In this document: one piece after another, positions 3,730-55,259 of the stretch
Layout of the letters: each line of letters starts with the position of its first letter
Position numbering within the stretch: position 1 is the stretch's first letter
NCBI GenBank assembly: GCA_024685175.1
Contig: JAIKWD010000003.1
Location: 62,001 to 126,000, forward strand
Source: Bacteroidales bacterium
Lineage (GTDB): Bacteria; Bacteroidota; Bacteroidia; Bacteroidales; WCHB1-69
Reading direction: 5' to 3'
Length of the DNA: 64,000 bases
The notes under the pieces: generated by a model
The model's database searches: none
What the model saw: only the letters and a program-made list of their open reading frames with translations
Told to the model about the DNA's origin: nothing
Made by a program: the position numbers and the translations under genes

Positions 3730-6700
3730 TTATTCTTCGCTCAACTTCTTATACCCTTCGTATCTCAGTTTCGCGAACTGCTCGGTCTTGGTGAACAATT
3801 CCTTGGCTTCCTCCGGGAAGGTCTTCAACAAACTGTTGTAACGGACCTCGCCCATGATGAAGTTCTGGAACTTGCTCCAGTCGGGCTCCTTGCTGTCAAG
3901 GTGGAAACCGTTCTTGCCGGCTTCGTCCTCTTCAGGATTGAAGTGCCACAAGTGCCAGTAACCGCACTCGACGGCCAACTTCTCTTCCAACTGGGAGTGA
4001 CCCATACCGATCTTGATGCCGTGGTTGATACACGGAGCGTAACAGATGATCAAGGAAGGTCCGTGATATGCCTCGGCTTCCTTGATGACCTTGAAGTACT
4101 GGGCCTGGCTGGAGCCGAGAGCGACCTGTGCCACATACACATAGCCGTAACTCTTGGCAATCATACCGAGGTCTTTCTTGCGCACCTTCTTACCGGAAGC
4201 GGCGAACTTGGCGACTGCGCCGGCAGGGGTAGCCTTGGAACTCTGACCACCGGTGTTGGAGTAAACCTCCGTGTCAAGCACGAGCACATTCACGTCCTCG
4301 CCAGATGCCAACACGTGGTCCAAACCGCCGAAGCCGATGTCGTAAGCCCAACCGTCACCACCGAAGATCCACTGGCTCTTCTTGACCAAGTGATCCTTGA
4401 GGTCGATGATTTGTTTGCAATAGTCGCAACCACACTTCTCGCATTCCACGATGATCTTGTCTGCCAACTCGGCGGTCTTGACACCATCTTCGCGGTTGTC
4501 GATCCACTCCTGGAAGAGAGCCTTGAGTTCAGCGCTGCAGCACTTGCACTCTGCGATGGCTTCCTTCATAACGCGCTCTACGCGGTCGCGCATCTTGCGG
4601 GTGGCAGTAGCCATACCCAAGCCGAACTCGGCGTTGTCCTCGAACAAGCTGTTGGCCCAAGCCACACCCTTGCCGCTTCTGCAGTTCTTGCAGTACGGAG
4701 TAGCAGGAGCGGAACCACCATAGATAGAGGAACAACCCGTGGCGTTGGCCACGATCATTCTTTCACCGAAGAGTTGGGTGATGGTCTTGATATACGGAGT
4801 TTCGCCGCAACCAGCGCAAGCGCCGGAGAACTCGAACAGCGGCTGTGCGAACTGGCTGTTCTTGATGTTGGCGAACTTGTCGAGCATATTGTCCTTGTAT
4901 GCGACCTTCTTCTGACCATAGGTCCAGTTGTCGGCTTCGTGGAGTTGGCTCTCGAACGGTTTCATCGTCAAAGCCTTCTCCTTGGCGGGACAAACGTCGG
5001 CGCAGTTGCCGCAACCCGTACAGTCGAGGACGGAAACTTGCATACGGAAATGCATACCGGCGAGTTCCTTCGGAGCCTTCACGTCGATGGCCTTCATAGA
5101 CTCGGGAGCACCCTTCAGTTCTTCGTCGTTCATCACGACCGGACGAATGGCAGCGTGAGGACACACGACAGAACATTGGTTACATTGGATACACTTGGTC
5201 GGATCCCACTCGGGAACGACGGTGGCCACGCCACGTTTTTCGTAAGCGGTAGTGCCAGCCGGGAAAGTGCCGTCCACGATTTCCTTGAAGGCGCTCACGG
5301 GCAGGTCGTTACCACACTGTGCCACCATCGGGCGCATCACCTTGTTGATGAAGTCGGGATCGTCGGCGTTGTGCTCGAATACGAAATCGGTGGTGCAGTC
5401 GAGGTTAGCCCATTCTGCAGGGATTTCCACCTTTTGGATTTCGCCACCACGATCGACGGCGGCATAGTTCATGTTCACAATATCCTCACCCTTCTTACCG
5501 TAGGACTTGACGATGAATTTCTTCATCTGCTCAACGGCCAGGTCGTAAGGAATGACGCCGGAAATCTTGAAGAATGCGCTTTGCAGGATGGTGTTGGTAC
5601 GGTTGCCCAAACCAATCTCGCCGGCGATCTTCGTAGCGTCGATGATGTACATGTTGATGTGGTGCAGGGCCAGATATTTCTTCACGAAATCAGGCAGGTG
5701 CGTCTTGGTCTCTTCCACGCTCCACGGGGAGTTGTAGAGGAAGGTGCCATTGTCCTTCAGACCGCGCAGGCAGTCGTATTTGCGCAGGTAGGAAGGCACG
5801 TGCACGGCCACGAAGTCGGGCGTACCCACGAGGTAAGGAGCCAGGATGGGCTTGTCGCCGAAACGAAGGTGGGAGCAGGTGTAACCACCGGACTTCTTGG
5901 AGTCGTAGTCGAAATATGCCTGGCTGTATTTGTCGGTGTTGTCACCAATGATCTTGATGGAGTTCTTGTTGGCACCCACGGTACCGTCAGCGCCGAGGCC
6001 GTAGAATTTGGCTTCGAAAGTGCCAGCAGGCAGGATGGAGATTTCCTTGCCAACCTTGAGGGACTTGAAGGTCACATCGTCGTTGATGCCAACGGTGAAT
6101 TGGTTCATCGGCTTCTCGGAGGCGAGGTTTTCGAAAATAGCCACGACTTGGGCGGGGGTGGTGTCCTTGGAGGAGAGACCGAAGCGGCCGCCGATGATCA
6201 TCGGGTGGTTCGGGCAATCCTTGAAGGCTTCCACAATGTCGAGATACAAAGGATCGCCGTTGGCGCCGGGTTCCTTGGTACGGTCGAGGACGCAGACGCG
6301 TTTTGCGGAGGTCGGGAATACCTGTTGCAGATATTTCACGCTGAACGGGCGATAGAGGTGGACGCTGACAAGGCCGAGTTTCTTGCCGGCGGCGTTCTCC
6401 TTATCGATGACGGTCTTGATAACGTCGGTGATGGAGCCCATAGCGATGATCACGTCGGTAGCGTCGGGAGCACCGTAATAGGTGAACGGAGCGTACTCAC
6501 GACCGGTGATCTTGCTCATCTCCTTCATATATTTGGCTACGATGTCGGGAAGTTCGTCGTAGTATTTGTTCTGCAGTTCGCGGGTCTGGAAATAGATGTC
6601 GGGGTTCTGGGCGGTACCGCGGGTCACGGGGTGCTCAGGATTCAAAGCTCTTTCGCGATAGGCCTTCAGGGCATCCCAGTTGATGAGCTTTTCGACATCC

Positions 6701-14074: not shown

Positions 14075-14110
14075 AGTGACAAAGATAGAGAAAAATGAGC
14101 AGAGAACAAA

Positions 14111-14149
14111 GTGATTAGAGATTAGAGATGATAGAATTTTGAATTTTGG
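14111..14149. repeat. 7-bp quasi-periodic tract
   Basis: Units in register: GTGATTA, GAGATTA, GAGATGA, TAGAATT, TTGAATT. It lies between the tviB-like gene end and the beta-helix gene start. Confidence 0.5.
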
Positions 14150-22359: not shown

Positions 22360-22367
22360 CAAAAATA
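22360..22367 (-). promoter_or_regulatory. -7 box for the Omp85-like gene and murB
   Basis: TATTTTTG on the minus strand, 27 bp before the start codon. Confidence 0.6.
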
Positions 22368-22384
22368 CGAAAAAAGATTTAAGA

Positions 22385-22440
22385 CGTAAGGAATGAGGAA
22401 TTAGGAATACTTTCCCCATTATCCCATTTGTCCCATCCCG
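22385..22440. repeat. 7-bp quasi-periodic tract between divergent promoters
   Basis: AGGAATG, AGGAATT, AGGAATA in register, then CCCAT-based units drifting in period. The rest of the interval up to 22540 shows weaker 7-bp echoes. It separates the Omp85-like and uvrA promoters. Confidence 0.45.
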
Positions 22441-34933: not shown

Positions 34934-36733
34934 TTAGTCGTCGGATTCCTTAGCTATAAAATCCTGGTATTTGGTCAGGAGCTTAGCCCGGGAGAGGAAG
35001 CCGACATATTTTCTCTCTTTAGTTATGATTGGAATATTGAAATTGCCCGTACGCTTGAACTTCTCCAGCACGACGGCAGCGGTGTCATCCTCGTAGATAA
35101 ACTCCTCCGGCTCAATCATGAGATCTTCCACCCGAACAAGGTCATAAAGCTCTTGGTTGAAGATGACGTCCCTATGGTCATCCATCACAAGCAGTCCATC
35201 GAAGCTGTTGTCGTTGTCCACGACAACGAAGAGGTTACGCTTGCTCTTGGCAATGATTTCCACGTAGGCACGCAAAGTGCTATGCGCAGGCACCGTCTTG
35301 ATGTCGGTGTCTATAAACTGATCCCATTGTATCTTCCGCAGGGCGAACTTGTTCTTGTTGTGGGTTTTTAGGTTACCTTTTTCAGCCAGAGGTTGTGTGT
35401 AGACGGAATATTTTTCAAAGGGATAGACGCTGAAGTACGAACAGGCCGCGGTAATCATCAGGGGGACGAGGAGTGTGTAGCCGCCCGACAGTTCGGCGAT
35501 GAGAAACATAGCGGTGAGGGGAGCCTGCATTACACCAGTCATCACGCCAGCCATACCCGCCAGGATGAAATTGGCATAAGGCAGATTGACACCTAAAAGA
35601 TGGTTTGATACTCCAGCCACGAAAAAGCCCGTGAAGGCTCCAATAAACAAGGTGGGTGCGAACACGCCGCCAACGCCACCGGCACTGGTTGTCAGCGTTG
35701 TGGCAAAGACCTTCAATAGGATGATGCCGGCCACACCCGCAAAGAGCACCCAAACGCTGCCTCCGAAAGCATGAAGGGGCGAATTGGCGAATAAAACGCT
35801 ATAGTCACCGTGAATCAACACGTTGATGTTTTCGTAACCTTCACCGTAAAAGACGGGGAAAAGGTAGATGAGCACACTTAATATCAGACCTCCCAAAAGC
35901 GCTTTCACATAGGGCTTCTTGATCTTGGCCATCTGTTTCTCAACCCATCGTGACATGCGGAGAAAATAGACAGACAACAAGCCCGTTAGCAAACCGAGCA
36001 GGACGTAAAAGGGGATATTGGAAATCGAAAACACCTGGGAGGCACCGATGGAAAACATCACGTTGCGACCAAGGAAGAACATGGACATTACCGTGCCCGT
36101 CGCAGCGGAAATTAGCAAAGGAAGAATGGCACTGCCAGTCAAGTCGAGCATCAGCACCTCGAAGGTGAAGACTATGGCGGCAATGGGGGCCTTAAATATG
36201 GCGGCCATGGCTGCCGCAGAGCCGCATGCCAGCAACAAGGTGGTCTGCTTGGCATTGAGATGGAACAATCGCGCCAGATTGGAGCCGATGGCCGAACCAG
36301 TCAGCACCATAGGAGCCTCCAAACCGACAGATCCGCCGAAACCAACTGTGATGGCACTCGACACCATGGAGGAATAGACATTGTGAAAACGCAGCTTGCC
36401 CTCGCTTTTGAAAATAGACTTAAGCACAATGCTCACCCCATGCCCGATATTATCCTTCACAACACGACGCACAAACAACAAGGTAATAAGGATACCCACA
36501 GGTGGAAAGATGAGATAGAGGTAGTTGACCTTCTCCACGGGAAAAGCACTGCTGAGCGCATGGGTGGTGACATATACCAAGTTTTTGATGACAATGGCCG
36601 CCAATGCACCGAATATGCCAATGAAAACACTCAACACGAGAACCGTGGCCCTTGTACTAAGATGTTTTTTCAGGAAACGCCTTGTCTTGGACACCGCACA
36701 CAAAAATCTCCGTTTAAACGAGTGTTTTTTCAT
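34934..36733 (-). CDS. ClC-type chloride channel/antiporter with CBS domains
   Basis: 599-residue membrane protein with about ten hydrophobic helices. The selectivity-filter region GFGGSVGLEAPMVLTGSAIG (around residue 140) keeps the gating Glu; the second half contains AGVMTGVMQAPLTAMFLIAE. After the membrane part there is a pair of CBS-like segments (about 470-595), which usually sense adenine nucleotides. The N-terminus is basic. The start is ATG at 36733 because the in-frame TTG at 36742 lies inside the -7 box. Only six bases separate that box from the ATG, so the transcript is probably leaderless. Confidence 0.92.
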   Translation of the reverse strand: MKKHSFKRRFLCAVSKTRRFLKKHLSTRATVLVLSVFIGIFGALAAIVIKNLVYVTTHALSSAFPVEKVNYLYLIFPPVGILITLLFVRRVVKDNIGHGVSIVLKSIFKSEGKLRFHNVYSSMVSSAITVGFGGSVGLEAPMVLTGSAIGSNLARLFHLNAKQTTLLLACGSAAAMAAIFKAPIAAIVFTFEVLMLDLTGSAILPLLISAATGTVMSMFFLGRNVMFSIGASQVFSISNIPFYVLLGLLTGLLSVYFLRMSRWVEKQMAKIKKPYVKALLGGLILSVLIYLFPVFYGEGYENINVLIHGDYSVLFANSPLHAFGGSVWVLFAGVAGIILLKVFATTLTTSAGGVGGVFAPTLFIGAFTGFFVAGVSNHLLGVNLPYANFILAGMAGVMTGVMQAPLTAMFLIAELSGGYTLLVPLMITAACSYFSVYPFEKYSVYTQPLAEKGNLKTHNKNKFALRKIQWDQFIDTDIKTVPAHSTLRAYVEIIAKSKRNLFVVVDNDNSFDGLLVMDDHRDVIFNQELYDLVRVEDLMIEPEEFIYEDDTAAVVLEKFKRTGNFNIPIITKERKYVGFLSRAKLLTKYQDFIAKESDD

Positions 36734-36739
36734 CGGCCG

Positions 36740-36747
36740 CAAAGATA
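36740..36747 (-). promoter_or_regulatory. -7 box for clc-rfbC-gph
   Basis: TATCTTTG followed by CGGCCG-ATG on the minus strand. Transcription should begin at or within two bases of the start codon. Confidence 0.65.
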
Positions 36748-36750
36748 ATA

Positions 36751-36827
36751 AAATAGATAATAGATTATGGATGATGATTATCGATTGATTGACTAACTGC
36801 TGACTGCTGACTGCTAACTGCTAACCA
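36751..36827. repeat. 7-bp quasi-periodic tract filling a divergent promoter interval
   Basis: Eleven units in one register: AAATAGA, TAATAGA, TTATGGA, TGATGAT, TATCGAT, TGATTGA, then CTAACTG, CTGACTG, CTGACTG, CTAACTG, CTAACCA. It starts 3 bp from one -7 box and ends 10 bp from the other. Confidence 0.7.
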
Positions 36828-36837
36828 CTAAATTTCG

Positions 36838-36845
36838 TATTTTTG
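36838..36845 (+). promoter_or_regulatory. -7 box for the M16 peptidase gene
   Basis: TATTTTTG followed by CCG, 11 bp before the ATG, so the leader is only about 5 nt. The -33 position falls within the heptad tract. Confidence 0.6.
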
Positions 36846-36856
36846 CCGCCAACAAT

Positions 36857-38092
36857 ATGTCATCAATTCAGCGAAACATCTTAGGCAACGGTTTGCACGT
36901 AGTGGTTCTTGAGGACCACACCACCCCGCTGGCCGCCTGTAACGTGGCCTATAATGTAGGCTCGCGCGACGAGCACCCCGACCATACAGGGTTCGCCCAT
37001 CTGATGGAGCATTTCATGTTCACAGGATCGGCAAACGTACCCGACTTTGACAAGGCCCTACAGAAGGTGGGCGCCATTAATAACGCTTACACCTCCCAAG
37101 ACCTCACCAATTACAATATCTTACTGCCCGCCAACAACTTGGAAACCGCTTTCTGGGTAGAATCCGATCGTATGTTGCAGCTCGCCTTTCGTCAGGAATC
37201 ATTGGATATCCAAAAGCAAGTGGTCATCGAAGAGTTCAAGGAGAGCTATCTCAATCGTCCATACGGGGATGTGATAATGCTCTTCAACCCGATGGTTTAT
37301 CATGAGCATCCTTACCAATGGTTGCCCATCGGCAAATGCACCGAGCATATTGCAGAGGCCGACATGGCGATGATTCGAGACTTCCATCACAGATTCTATC
37401 ATCCCGCCAATGCCGCTCTCATCGTGGCGGGCGACGTGTGTGCTGAAGAAGTCTTCGCCCTGGCGGACAAGTGGTTCGGCGACATTCCGACGGGTCCAGC
37501 AAAGGAATGCCACTACCCACAAGAGCCCACACAAAGGGAAGCTCGCCATCTCGTGGTGGAACGCGACGTTCCCTCCGACCTTCTACTTAAGGGATTTCGC
37601 ATGTGCGACCGCCTGCACCCCGACTTCTACGCCTACGACCTGCTCTCCGACTTGCTCGGCACGGGCAAATCCTCTTACCTCTATCAAACGTTCGTGACAG
37701 AGCGACGGCTCTTCACCGACATCTCCGCTGCGGTCACCGGCACCGCCGACGAAGGCGTGTTCCAAATCAGCGGTCGTCCCATCGAAGGCATATCCATTGA
37801 GGAGGCCGATGCCGCCTTGGAAGACTATCTATTTGACTTCCACTTTGACAATCATCTTCCACATGATTTGCAAAAAGTCCAGAACGCCGCAGAGTCCATC
37901 CTCCTTTACAACGAAATCAAAATCGACGACCGGGCTACCAACTTGGCCGTTTGGGAGACCCTTGACTGCTTTGAACGCTTTCTCAATGAACGTCAACGCT
38001 ATTTTGACGTTACCGAAGACCAGATGCAACGCATATCAGCTTCTCTCTTTGCAGAAGAAAGATGTTGCACACTCCTTTATAAGGGGAGATAA
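36857..38092 (+). CDS. M16 family zinc metallopeptidase
   Basis: Pitrilysin/processing-peptidase family protein of 411 residues, the single-unit length that works as a dimer or hetero-pair. The inverted zinc motif HxxEH appears as FAHLMEHFMFTGS (about 47-59), with the third ligand expected about 75 residues later (EEFKESYLNRPYGD region). No signal peptide is seen, so it is probably cytoplasmic. The C-terminal half (VERDVPSDLLLKGFRM, LLGTGKSSYLYQTFV) matches the inactive second domain of each unit. Monocistronic or read through to the lipoprotein gene. Confidence 0.93.
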   Translation: MSSIQRNILGNGLHVVVLEDHTTPLAACNVAYNVGSRDEHPDHTGFAHLMEHFMFTGSANVPDFDKALQKVGAINNAYTSQDLTNYNILLPANNLETAFWVESDRMLQLAFRQESLDIQKQVVIEEFKESYLNRPYGDVIMLFNPMVYHEHPYQWLPIGKCTEHIAEADMAMIRDFHHRFYHPANAALIVAGDVCAEEVFALADKWFGDIPTGPAKECHYPQEPTQREARHLVVERDVPSDLLLKGFRMCDRLHPDFYAYDLLSDLLGTGKSSYLYQTFVTERRLFTDISAAVTGTADEGVFQISGRPIEGISIEEADAALEDYLFDFHFDNHLPHDLQKVQNAAESILLYNEIKIDDRATNLAVWETLDCFERFLNERQRYFDVTEDQMQRISASLFAEERCCTLLYKGR

Positions 38093-39105: not shown

Positions 39106-40710
39106 ATGGAGAAAATCATCATCCTCGACTTCGGTTCCCAAACCACCCAATTGATAGGCAGAAGGGTTCGCGAACTGGATATGTTCTGCGAAATCGTGCC
39201 TTACAACAAGTTTCCGCAGGACGACCCCGACGTTATCGGCGTCATCTTGAGCGGTTCGCCGTTCAGCGTATACGACGAGCGCGCTTTCAAGGTTGACTTG
39301 TCGGGCATACGCGGCCGCCTACCCATCCTGGGCATCTGCTATGGCGCGCAGTTTATGGCGCACACCAACGGCGGCAGCGTGGAGCCCGCCGGCAGTCGCG
39401 AGTACGGCCGTGCCAATCTGGCGGCTTTCGAGCACGACAACCCGCTGTTGCAAGGCCTTGACGCACACACGCAGGTCTGGATGAGCCACGGCGACACCAT
39501 CACCCGCCTGCCCGAACACTGCCACAAGATCGCCTCCACCGACAAAGTGGAGTTCGCCGCCTATCAGTTCGAGGGCGAGAAGACGTGGGGCGTGCAGTTC
39601 CATCCCGAAGTGTTCCACACAACCCAAGGCACGCAGTTGCTCAAGAACTTCGTGGTGGGCATCTGCGGCGGACACCAGACGTGGAGTCCCGCCTCCTTCG
39701 TAGAGACCACGGTGGCCGAACTCAAGGAGCAAATCGGCGACGACCGCGTCATCCTGGGCCTCTCTGGCGGCGTGGACTCGTCCGTATGCGCCGTGCTTCT
39801 GCACAAGGCCATTGGAGCCAACCTGACCTGCATCTTCGTGGACCACGGCCTGCTGCGCAAGAACGAGTTCCAAAACGTGATGCGCGACTACGAAGGCCTC
39901 GGCCTCAACGTCATCGGCGTGGACGCGAGCGAGAAGTTCTTCAAGGAGTTGGAGGGTGTGGAAGAGCCTGAACGCAAGCGCAAGATCATCGGCGCGGGCT
40001 TCATCGACGTCTTCAACGCCGAAGCGCAGAAGATCACCGATGCCAAGTGGTTGGCGCAGGGCACCATCTATCCCGACCGCATCGAGAGTCTGAGCATCAC
40101 GGGTATGGTCATCAAGAGCCACCACAATGTGGGCGGACTGCCTGAGAAGATGCACTTGAAACTGTGCGAGCCGTTGAAGTGGCTGTTCAAGGACGAAGTG
40201 CGCCGCGTGGGACGCCAGCTGGGGATGCCCGAGCATCTTATCACCCGCCATCCGTTCCCGGGACCAGGCTTGGCCGTGCGTATCTTGGGCGACATCACCC
40301 GCGAGAAGGTCCGCATCCTGCAAGACGCCGACGACATCTTCATCCAAGGGCTGCGCGACTGGAAAGTGCGGCTCGGCGGCGAGGAGGCCCGCAAAGTGCT
40401 GGCCGCCGGCGTGCCCGCCAATATGACCGACGGCGAGATCGAAGTCTCGCTCTACGACCAGGTGTGGCAGGCAGGCGTCATCCTGCTGCCCATCAAGAGT
40501 GTGGGCGTGATGGGCGATGAGCGCACCTACGAGCGTGCGGTGGCCCTGCGCGCCGTGACCAGCACCGACGCCATGACCGCCGACTGGGCTCACCTGCCCT
40601 ACGAGTTTATGGCCAAGGTGTCCAACGACATCATCAACAAGGTGAAAGGCGTGAACCGCGTCTGCTACGACATCAGCTCCAAACCGCCCGCGACAATAGA
40701 GTGGGAGTAA
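39106..40710 (+). CDS. guaA: GMP synthase (glutamine-hydrolysing)
   Basis: Makes GMP from XMP, ATP and glutamine. 534 residues. Class I glutaminase domain with the catalytic Cys in [11 protein letters not shown] (about 76-86) and His/Glu in QFHPEVFHT (about 165-173); ATP-pyrophosphatase domain with the P-loop LSGGVDSSV (about 220-228); dimerisation domain ending [18 protein letters not shown], the invariant C-terminus of GuaA. An integrase remnant and arm-type repeats follow within 250 bp; guaA 3' ends are known integration targets for genomic islands. Confidence 0.98.
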
Positions 40711-40830: not shown

Positions 40831-40847
40831 GGCCCAAAATGGGAAAA

Positions 40848-40891
40848 GTTGCCACTAAAAGTTGCCACTACTTGCCACGAAAAGTTGACAC
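40848..40891 (+). repeat. short direct repeats, probable integrase arm-type sites
   Basis: Four close copies of an octamer: GTTGCCAC at 40848 and 40861, CTTGCCAC at 40871, GTTGACAC at 40884; a fifth exact copy sits at 40791 inside the terminator loop. Spacing is 13, 10 and 13 bp. Short direct repeats of this type beside a tyrosine integrase gene are usual arm-type binding sites at the end of an integrative element. Confidence 0.6.
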
Positions 40892-40934: not shown

Positions 40935-41294
40935 ATGGCTATTAAAATCACATTCAAGTTAAAAGAACCTCTACGTGAGGAATCGTTGTTACTGCTTTTT
41001 TGCAGGTGGGATAATCAACAAATCAAGATAAGCACAAGACAAAAGGTCTTCTCTGACACTTGGGATGCCAAGAAACAATTGTGCATCACAAGTAAAGAGA
41101 AATATCCTGCAAGAATAAACCGAATTAGCAAAAAAACAAATGCTTTCTTGGAGCAGCTTTCTTCAAGACTAATCGAGTTCTATGACGACAATTATTCTGG
41201 TTCAATGTCCATAGAGAAAGCTAAAACCTCAATTAAGAGAATGATAGAAGACCTTTATGCGGGCCATCGCCCACGATTACCGAAAGATGGGTGA
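40935..41294 (+). pseudogene. truncated tyrosine recombinase (integrase N-terminal fragment)
   Basis: About 119 codons. MAIKITFKLKEPLREESLL, CRWDNQQIKISTRQKVF and TWDAKKQ match the arm-type DNA-binding domain at the N-terminus of Bacteroidota integrases, and the helical stretch up to IKRMIEDLY (codon about 109) matches the start of the core-binding (SAM-like) domain. The catalytic domain with the R-H-R-Y residues, about 280 residues, is absent. The frame runs for a few more codons into the next gene and stops at 41294. Base composition is clearly AT-rich up to about 41255 and GC-rich after it, which marks a junction. It is the relic of an integrated element that has been lost. Confidence 0.8.
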
Positions 41295-42294
41295 AGCGTT
41301 GTGGTCCAAGTTCAACGCTCCTAACGGACGCGCCGACCACGAGTGGCACTACCGCTGCCTGGCCCGGTCGCTGGGCGAGTTGGCCGACACGTTCGCCTAC
41401 CAGGAGTTCATCGCCCTCATCACGGAGGTCTTCGGCACCGAAGCAGGAGAACCGCCTATCCCGAAGGCCGAGCCCATCGACCTCGACGACTACGAATACG
41501 CCGGCGAGGGAGCCAACGGGACCAGCTACAACCACAAGCAGAACCCCGACATAATGCTGAAGCTCTACCGGAGCGACGCACCTATCGATATCATTGTCAA
41601 TGAGTTGAATCTCTCCAAAAAGGTCTACGAGTTGGGCATCCCTTCCCCGAAGCCCGGTGATTTCGTCACGGACGGCAAAGGACAATACGGTATTCGATTC
41701 GAGCGCATCACGGACAAGATCTCTTTCGCGCGCGCCGTGGGCAACGAGCCCGCACGTGTGGAGGAGTTCGCCCGCAAATTCGCGCGGCTCTGCTTGGAGC
41801 TCCACCACACACATCTGCCCAAAGGAATGGTTCCCGACATCAAAGAGGTGAATCTCAAGATGTTGGAAGACAATCCCTACCTTACAAAGGAAGAGAAGGA
41901 GAGAATTGCCAAGTTCATCCAAGACGCTCCGGAGGGCGACACCGCTATCCACGGCGACCTGCAGTTCGGCAACGCCATTATGGCCAAAGGGAACAGCTAT
42001 TTCATCGACCTCGGCGACTTCGCCTGCGGTCATCCCAACTTCGACCTGGGGATGGTGCTGCTCGTCTGCTGCTACGACGACCCCGACTTCCTGCGCGAGG
42101 TGTTCCACATGGAACCCGAGACGGCCAGCCAATTCTGGGTGTATTTCGTCAAGGAATATTACGGCGAAGACGCCGACCCCGACCAAAAGCGCAGGGAACT
42201 CCTGCCTTGTTGCGGACTCAAGAACCTCATCATCGAACGCAACGCCGGCATCCCATTCCCTGCGTACCGGGAATTGTTGCTGGACAATATTTAG
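41257..42294 (+). CDS. aminoglycoside phosphotransferase-like kinase domain protein
   Basis: 345 residues. The kinase-like fold is shown by the catalytic loop AIHGDLQFGNAI (about 230-241) and the metal-binding FIDLGDFACGHP (about 249-260), as in APH and choline kinase families; it resembles the TIGR02172 group. The first 70 residues (RKMGEALWSKFNAP, LARSLGELADTFAYQEF) form an extra helical region. The substrate is unknown and need not be an antibiotic. The first codons overlap the integrase fragment at the composition junction, so the true N-terminus may have been cut or altered by the insertion. No separate promoter is evident. Confidence 0.75.
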   Translation: MRAIAHDYRKMGEALWSKFNAPNGRADHEWHYRCLARSLGELADTFAYQEFIALITEVFGTEAGEPPIPKAEPIDLDDYEYAGEGANGTSYNHKQNPDIMLKLYRSDAPIDIIVNELNLSKKVYELGIPSPKPGDFVTDGKGQYGIRFERITDKISFARAVGNEPARVEEFARKFARLCLELHHTHLPKGMVPDIKEVNLKMLEDNPYLTKEEKERIAKFIQDAPEGDTAIHGDLQFGNAIMAKGNSYFIDLGDFACGHPNFDLGMVLLVCCYDDPDFLREVFHMEPETASQFWVYFVKEYYGEDADPDQKRRELLPCCGLKNLIIERNAGIPFPAYRELLLDNI

Positions 42295-42295
42295 C

Positions 42296-42359
42296 CGTTA
42301 GCGATTAGCAGTTAGCCGATAGCATTGTAGAGCTCTATCTGCTACCCGCTAACTGCTAA
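42296..42359. repeat. 7-bp quasi-periodic inverted repeat
   Basis: Units TTAGCGA, TTAGCAG, TTAGCCG, ATAGCAT, then the complementary set CTATCTG, CTACCCG, CTAACTG. The arms TTAGCAGTTAGC (42305-42316) and its exact complement (42348-42359) form a long imperfect hairpin, possibly also the terminator of the upstream gene. Confidence 0.65.
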
Positions 42360-44654: not shown

Positions 44655-44766
44655 ATTCAGGATTCAGAATGTTAGATTTGAGACTTGAGATTGATAATAG
44701 ATAATAGATTGTAGATGATAGAAAATCGACCAAGAATGACTAATCATTAATCACTAATTCCTAATT
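44655..44766. repeat. longest 7-bp quasi-periodic tract (16 units)
   Basis: Sixteen units in one unbroken register, for example ATTCAGG, ATTCAGA, ATTTGAG, ACTTGAG, ATAGATA, ATAGATT, ACTAATC, ATTAATC, ACTAATT, CCTAATT. The first base of the unit is A in 14 of 16. It lies upstream of the ABC permease promoter; a smaller tract (CAGACAG-type units) is at 44585-44606. Confidence 0.7.
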
Positions 44767-44792
44767 CCAAACCTTGTTCTTTGTTTTTTCCC

Positions 44793-55156: not shown

Positions 55157-55250
55157 AGTTAGGAGTGCGGGATGAGGGGTGAGGTGTTATTTTCCATCAC
55201 ATTCGACTTCTTCCTTTGAACGCTAACTGCCATCCGCTATCTGCTATCCG
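55157..55250. repeat. 7-bp quasi-periodic tract filling a divergent promoter interval
   Basis: AGTTAGG, AGTGCGG, GATGAGG, GGTGAGG at the left, a weak middle, and CTAACTG, CCATCCG, CTATCTG, CTATCCG at 55223-55250. It begins 7 bp from the uvrB -7 box and ends 9 bp from the holA -7 box, the same layout as at 36751. Confidence 0.65.
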
Positions 55251-55259
55251 CATTTTTTG

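Follow-up and report, generated by a model that had tools for sequence, protein, structure and literature searches.

What makes the DNA between two divergent promoters repeat itself every seven nucleotides? The question is raised by a locus in the window, by which we mean the whole stretch of 64,000 nt that was analysed, from the genome of an uncultured bacterium (G000, the own genome below; 2.12 Mb in 38 contigs, 98% complete). Among named genomes, the nearest relatives found were three metagenome assemblies of Bacteroidales, with an M16 protein identity of 79–80% and with a water-buffalo rumen and a yak omasum (one each) among their sources. At this locus a gene for a CLC-type chloride channel with a CBS domain (clc; Pfam Voltage_CLC, E = 9.7e-76; CBS, E = 2e-9) faces away from a gene for an M16-family peptidase (Peptidase_M16_C, E = 3e-29; Peptidase_M16, E = 3.6e-20). 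The clc gene was matched in all 40 genomes of the genus, some of the matches being partial, and the M16 gene had near full-length matches in 16 of 20. Both genes are preceded by a -7 box, for which the consensus is TAnnTTTG. The two boxes are separated by 90 nt, mostly filled by two arrays of heptads. We give a probability of about 0.6 to the reading that this tract is a pair of intergenic heptanucleotide arrays that grew by 7-nt steps and are tolerated as filler. The features of the locus are as follows, the arrays and the break being given without a strand:

34934–36733, minus strand: clc gene, CLC-type chloride channel with CBS domain (open reading frame list and Pfam); ATG at 36731–36733, seen as 'cat' at 36731
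36740–36747, minus strand: -7 box of the clc promoter, CAAAGATA (TATCTTTG), as read on the minus strand (position by script)
36752–36776: array 1, AATAGAT-like heptads (lag-7 tract, score 12)
36777–36792: break of 16 nt between the arrays, where successive-unit matches drop to 0 and 2 of 7
36793–36831: array 2, CTRACTG (CTAACTG-like) heptads (lag-7 tract, score 24)
36838–36845, plus strand: -7 box of the M16 promoter, TATTTTTG (position by script)
36857–38092, plus strand: M16-family peptidase gene (open reading frame list and Pfam)

The tract consists of two arrays

A sequence-only reading of this DNA had reported a 7-nt periodicity at 36751–36827, and the periodicity is present far beyond chance. 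The tract has 45 lag-7 matches out of 70, while dinucleotide shuffles average 18.8 and reach 40 at most, none of 20,000 being as high. Across the gap between the genes (36734–36856), the top lag-7 tract score is 24, compared with a shuffled maximum of 11 (0 of 5,000 as high). The same reading had counted eleven heptads in one register, which does not hold. Successive units match at 7, 5, 4, 4, 0, 2, 6, 7, 6 and 5 of 7 positions. With values as low as 0 and 2 in the middle, two arrays are present, and the loss of register across 36777–36792 rules out one continuous array. Array 1 is G-skewed on the plus strand and thus C-skewed when read toward clc. Array 2, within which 36793–36825 has a TRF score of 52, points toward the M16 gene, and the plus strand is C-skewed there; the word of this array is TRACTGC, not exactly TAACTGA. 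The fit to the promoter interval was described correctly: the tract as first delimited starts 3 nt from the clc box and ends 10 nt from the M16 box, and rescoring extends it to 36831, 6 nt short of the latter.

Heptad tracts lie mainly between genes

A lag-7 scan of the window revealed the following further tracts, again without a strand (skew labels here and below are simple counts of G and C):

14110–14148: heptad tract (GATTAGA, GAATTTT)
22363–22408: heptad tract (GGAATKA) on the promoter side of a minus-strand gene
42291–42323: heptad tract (TTAGCNG) running from the end of the gene at 41257–42294
44655–44771: gap with G-skewed heptads (GATAATA) followed by C-skewed ones (CTAATTC)
55222–55251: heptad array (GCTAWCN), followed after 8 nt by a TAnnTTTG box (tract and box scan)

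A different repeat lies at 40844–40870, 3′ of the gene ending at 40710, where AAAAGTTGCCACT occurs twice in perfect copies (TRF).

The own genome was sampled over 824 kb of its 2.12 Mb (the window and 38 other stretches), which gave 377 gaps of 30–1000 nt. Genes were called by our own scripts, so gap edges and starts are approximate, and the genomes compared are mostly metagenome assemblies. The sequence-only reading had staked itself on an excess of lag 7 in intergenic DNA, and that excess was found: the sample holds 40 lag-7 tracts, against 0.3 in shuffles and 2, 9, 4, 0, 4 and 2 tracts at lags 5, 8, 9, 10, 11 and 13. Plain autocorrelation of the gaps, which it had proposed as a check, gave a clear signal in one relative, G014 (0.336 at lag 7 and raised values also at lags 14, 21 and 28), and a modest one in the own genome (0.293 at lag 7; 0.287, 0.284 and 0.312 at lags 6, 8 and 3), probably because coding DNA remains in the called gaps. 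In a 464 kb sample of the own genome, in which non-coding sequence makes up about a tenth or less of the DNA, 18 tracts at score 14 were non-coding and 8 coding. Heptad tracts thus lie mainly between genes.

Sampled stretches of nine related genomes carry lag-7 tracts in 217 of 1057 gaps, 266 tracts in all, covering 11386 of 200426 gap bases. G014 has 67 such tracts, compared with 0–7 at other lags; in G015 and G005, lag 7 is not above lag 8 (4 vs 7 and 4 vs 5). Of 68 Bacteroidota loci, 32 were assigned to the genus by identity, and these have 51 lag-7 tracts; the other 36 come from more distant Bacteroidota and have none. Other genera of the family have 10 in 24 loci, against 0–2 at lags 5, 8, 10, 11 and 13, and five loci of the own genus examined beside them have none.

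Arrays have a polarity within gaps

Wherever a G-rich and a C-rich array lie next to each other in one gap, the order is G then C, in 40 of 40 cases across nine genomes (23/23 in the first seven, 8/8 and 9/9 in two more) and in all four gene orientations. Within tracts of seven genomes, GC skew falls across the gap, from +0.41 in its left fifth to -0.43 in its right fifth; the remaining gap DNA goes only from 0.03 to -0.04. Single arrays obey this left/right rule less consistently, in 55 of 86 cases from the first seven genomes, and for single-array gaps of the own genome, scored by gap half, the rule fails, with 10 arrays following it and 15 against. Relative to the neighbouring gene in nine genomes, the sense strand is C-rich in 47 tracts, G-rich in 9 and even in 1 at up to 20 nt from the -7 box, compared with 29, 31 and 3 farther away, and it is G-rich in 96, C-rich in 36 and even in 3 at up to 20 nt from a gene's 3′ end. 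Promoters with no tract nearby have an upstream GC skew of -0.035. In two-array gaps, the spacer DNA between the arrays has a median length of 26.5 nt (range 0–423).

Two arms of opposite skew could form a hairpin or a bidirectional terminator. In 6 of 23 gaps the arms exceed the 0.9 percentile of complementarity relative to arms from other gaps (mean 0.68), which speaks for such a structure, but the arms of the clc/M16 tract match at the 0.00 percentile, and shuffled sequences fold about as well as this tract (z = 0.62 and -0.23 for the two strands). A hairpin was therefore rejected for the clc/M16 tract, and we consider this explanation very unlikely.

The polarity also resembles that of joined telomere ends, as if the repeats had been added by a host reverse transcriptase, telomerase-like or similar to DRT10, which makes tandem-repeat DNA according to a preprint (PMC12632851). 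Against this, RVT_1 (PF00078) has no match in the own genome, 98% complete as it is. It was found in 4 of 12 genomes, and G010 and G001 (63% and 84% complete), both rich in arrays, are not among these. The spacers between arrays also argue against it, and we dismissed a host reverse transcriptase as extremely improbable. End joining at double-strand breaks, considered because of the polarity, was set aside since most gaps have spacer DNA between their arrays. Slippage alone does not account for the polarity.

Relation to promoters

In nine genomes, 120 of 616 TAnnTTTG boxes before genes have a tract within 150 nt upstream, and 35 of these 120 tracts stop 5–9 nt short of the box. For eight genomes, 38 of 88 tracts lie within 10 nt of the box, compared with 14.4 ± 3.1 under random placement in the gap. 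The fit to promoters on which the sequence-only reading had built is therefore real beyond this locus. It could reflect a promoter-upstream element, in which heptads that are C-rich in sense would stand in for the -33 box and would be bound by a regulator, by the α C-terminal domains of RNA polymerase or by a nucleoid protein, the period mattering more than the word. The C-rich sense strand close to the box, although lost beyond 20 nt, and the heptad arrays of differing words at the M16 promoter of several species agree with such an element.

A promoter-specific role is not supported. In the own genome, tracts occupy 3.3% of the bases of convergent gaps, 2.7% for divergent gaps and 2.4% for tandem ones; the corresponding shares in seven genomes are 4.5%, 4.2% and 5.2%. 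Convergent gaps are thus similarly dense, and arrays occur at gene 3′ ends as well, so that there is no restriction to promoters. Furthermore, no tract lies within 150 nt upstream of 496 of the 616 boxes, orthologous clc and M16 promoters exist that have no array, and the words are not conserved. We regard a promoter element as possible but doubtful. A fixed array of binding sites was discarded, since matches within tracts decay with distance (except in tracts chosen on lag 21) and the words differ among species.

At boxes of the own genome that have no tract, TTTG lies at -22/-23 from TA in 12 of 199 cases. This weak enrichment at the expected -33 place suggests that a -33 box may matter little in the genus.

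The same gene edges in other species

Arrays precede the M16 gene in 8 of 33 other loci. At least five words are represented (ATTCAGC, ATTCTTC, ATTCTAC, TTAACTC and CTAACTG), and the arrays end about equally far from the -7 box. In L089, a 14-nt repeat, CAACATTTACTCAT, lies in the M16 promoter upstream of position 6001; it has the look of two alternating heptads and was missed by the lag-7 test. The clc gene lies within 3.5 kb upstream of M16 in 2 of the 33 loci, some of which hold less than 3.5 kb of upstream DNA: L076 and L079 (81% and 85% identical). In both, the two genes stand head to head, their boxes are 10 and 35 nt apart, and an array is missing. The clc stop codon is adjoined by an array in 7 of 30 loci, judged by eye with the loci in their original orientation, so that many of the 30 show the 5′ side of clc instead; the words differ and include ATTCAGC, GCCAAYA and CTAACTG.

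We also compared G014 with the closely related G006. Among 145 gaps, 25 are orthologous, and tracts occur in both genomes in 11 of these, in G014 only in 4, in G006 only in 2 and in neither in 8. Clean length differences inside arrays are 42, 35, 7+7 and 7 nt. In alignable pairs, a length divisible by 7 was found for 7 of 25 indels inside tracts, compared with 7 of 65 outside. Many of the other 18 inside tracts fall in poorly alignable gaps, and alignments of strongly diverged gaps carry little weight. Whole words are exchanged between orthologous gaps (L164_14349, L163_9698). The arrays are dispersed over many loci, and their units vary between the two genomes.

Other repeats share these gaps. 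A dispersed palindromic repeat with the core CAGCCCCG...GGGGCAAGAGCTCGGTAGAG, REP-like by eye, is present in L163, L164 and L165 of G014 and in L188–L192 of G006; stretches of 97–175 nt recur between loci; and at L163:4188-4345 and its L188 orthologue a palindrome, GTAGAGACGCAAAATTTTGCGTCTCTAC, adjoins a heptad array.

Word families and dispersed copies

The commonest words are shared among 8, 6, 6, 5 and 5 gaps, where composition predicts 2.9 for the commonest. With overlapping matches included, the own genome has 15 instances of GCTAWCNx3, which is present in 20 of 40 genomes. A second family is defined by GGTTATDx3GAAG, with 67 copies in G014, 68 in G006 and a presence in 19 of 40 genus genomes; its reversed control gave 0. 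In the sampled stretches of three genomes, (GGTTATN)nGAAG has 45 dispersed copies, with n = 4 in 36 and a preceding AAT in 39. The free position outside the last unit is G in 56 cases, T in 55, A in 18 and C in 2. Runs of the GGTTATN family have four units in 41 of 55 cases, and this preference is less clear in other word families.

Such copy numbers, with the inverted order of all 40 adjacent pairs, could mean that the arrays are the inverted ends of a small dispersed element, non-autonomous or copied. One insertion has this form: 305 nt in G006 relative to G014 (L188:18400-18742 vs L163:12780-12816), bounded by inverted GGTTATN arrays, with a possible 2–3 nt duplication (TA or TTA) at a stop codon, by eye. 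Conversely, GGTTATDx3GAAG has no match in the own genome, and only 1 inverted pair within 1 kb exists among the 45 copies. The single candidate pair that was read, with about 2.8 kb between its members, encloses ordinary chromosomal genes and no recognised transposase, and a transposase between inverted GGTTATN copies was rejected on this basis. In addition, the arms of the clc/M16 tract are the least complementary of six pairs from the own genome. We judge mobile-element ends an unlikely explanation.

A proposed origin

We propose a single account for what is observed: the heptad periodicity, the placement at gene edges, the polarity of the pooled arrays, some gain and loss of 7 nt, and the change of word at the same edge. 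In this account, each array borders one neighbouring gene, at this locus about 4–6 nt outside its -7 box, and runs away from that gene with its G-richer strand 5′ to 3′ outward. Strand slippage or local duplication would lengthen and shorten it by 7 nt at a time, starting from the edge, and some words would be copied from locus to locus. What survives would be DNA that harms neither the coding sequence nor the -7 box, and the clc/M16 tract would be tolerated filler in the place of the -33 regions, not a required part of the promoters. Slippage or local duplication, combined with some copying of words between loci, is the most likely origin.

Several observations count for this origin. The lag-7 excess is found in the own and related genomes, at similar density in all gap types. 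G014 and G006 differ by 7-nt units and at one gap by whole words, and the pairs at L076 and L079 lack an array. M16 promoters and clc 3′ ends carry arrays of differing words in a minority of loci (8 of 33 and 7 of 30). The order of the arms and the opposite strand preferences near promoters and 3′ ends fit as well. Matches inside tracts fall from 0.77 through 0.70, 0.64, 0.59 and 0.56 to 0.54 over lags 7 to 42, as copying from neighbouring units would give.

Other observations count against simple local slippage. It leaves unexplained the words common to several loci and the 45 copies of (GGTTATN)nGAAG, and slippage by itself explains neither the strand polarity nor the short distance to the -7 box. 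Moreover, 18 of the 25 indels inside tracts have lengths not divisible by 7, the match does not decay with distance in tracts chosen on lag 21, the left/right rule fails for single arrays of the own genome, and G015 and G005 lack a lag-7 excess. Matched cases, in which the same gene edge bears another word or no array, make the questions of promoter role and origin testable.

Comparison with known heptamer systems

Cyanobacterial STRR heptamers are tandem heptanucleotides between genes, as are the arrays described here. A Calothrix case of STRR heptamers is mentioned in PMC4692102. The analogy to cyanobacterial heptamer repeats, drawn in the sequence-only reading, is a good one. That reading knew of no Bacteroidota element of this kind, a view corrected by the TAACTGA direct repeats reported from marine Beggiatoaceae, some Cyanobacteria and five Bacteroidetes (MacGregor 2015, PMC4679880). 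As described there, these repeats have a near-identical word (TAACTG + N), are intergenic, point forward toward the downstream gene and are split by related heptamers. Their indels between two Cyanothece strains come in 7-nt steps, a feature common to the arrays here. The TAACTGA arrays end by start codons and have one dominant word, whereas those described here end before the -7 box and vary in word. Among the papers listed by our literature searches, none dealt with heptamer arrays before Bacteroidota -7 boxes.

The closest parallel in layout is offered by the GGGAATC/GGGGAYT heptameric repeats of Xanthomonas and Nostoc, interpreted as G-quadruplexes (Rehm et al. 2015, PMC4692102). By comparison with that study, both systems consist of dispersed intergenic heptamers with fixed and free positions, the G-rich strand being antisense upstream of open reading frames and sense after stop codons. 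Both have pairs of arrays in convergent orientation and shift in length and sequence between close species, and the four-unit preference recurs in the GGTTATN family of related species. Unlike those repeats, the arrays here comprise many words per genome, lack such a clear four-unit preference in other word families, do not avoid divergent gaps in the own genome and keep a short preferred distance to the -7 box.

The shared layout and degeneracy, together with the GG runs and four-unit preference of GGTTATN, would suit a G-quadruplex element of the kind put forward for Xanthomonas and Nostoc. A three-tetrad motif is absent from all 266 tracts, a further difference from those repeats, and a two-tetrad motif occurs in 56, only 1 of them among the 40 tracts of the own genome. 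Three-tetrad quadruplexes were accordingly rejected, and the chance that a quadruplex element explains the arrays is close to nil. Because GGTTATN has GG runs, its four-unit preference cannot be used against quadruplexes.

We place the clc/M16 tract with the heptamer arrays of Xanthomonas, Nostoc and Beggiatoaceae, as a variant. The layout rule of the G-rich heptamers of Xanthomonas and Nostoc thus recurs in another phylum in arrays that have no three-tetrad motif. This recurrence speaks against a general origin of the rule in such quadruplexes and suggests that heptamer arrays are made in a common way. It is conceivable, if improbable, that a DNA-synthesis or repair activity of unrelated bacteria, common to this Bacteroidales family, Xanthomonas and Nostoc, extends gene edges outward by 7 nt at a time, with the G-richer strand leading outward and one or two positions of each unit not fixed. 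If so, the common layout would reflect how the arrays are made rather than quadruplexes or promoter function.
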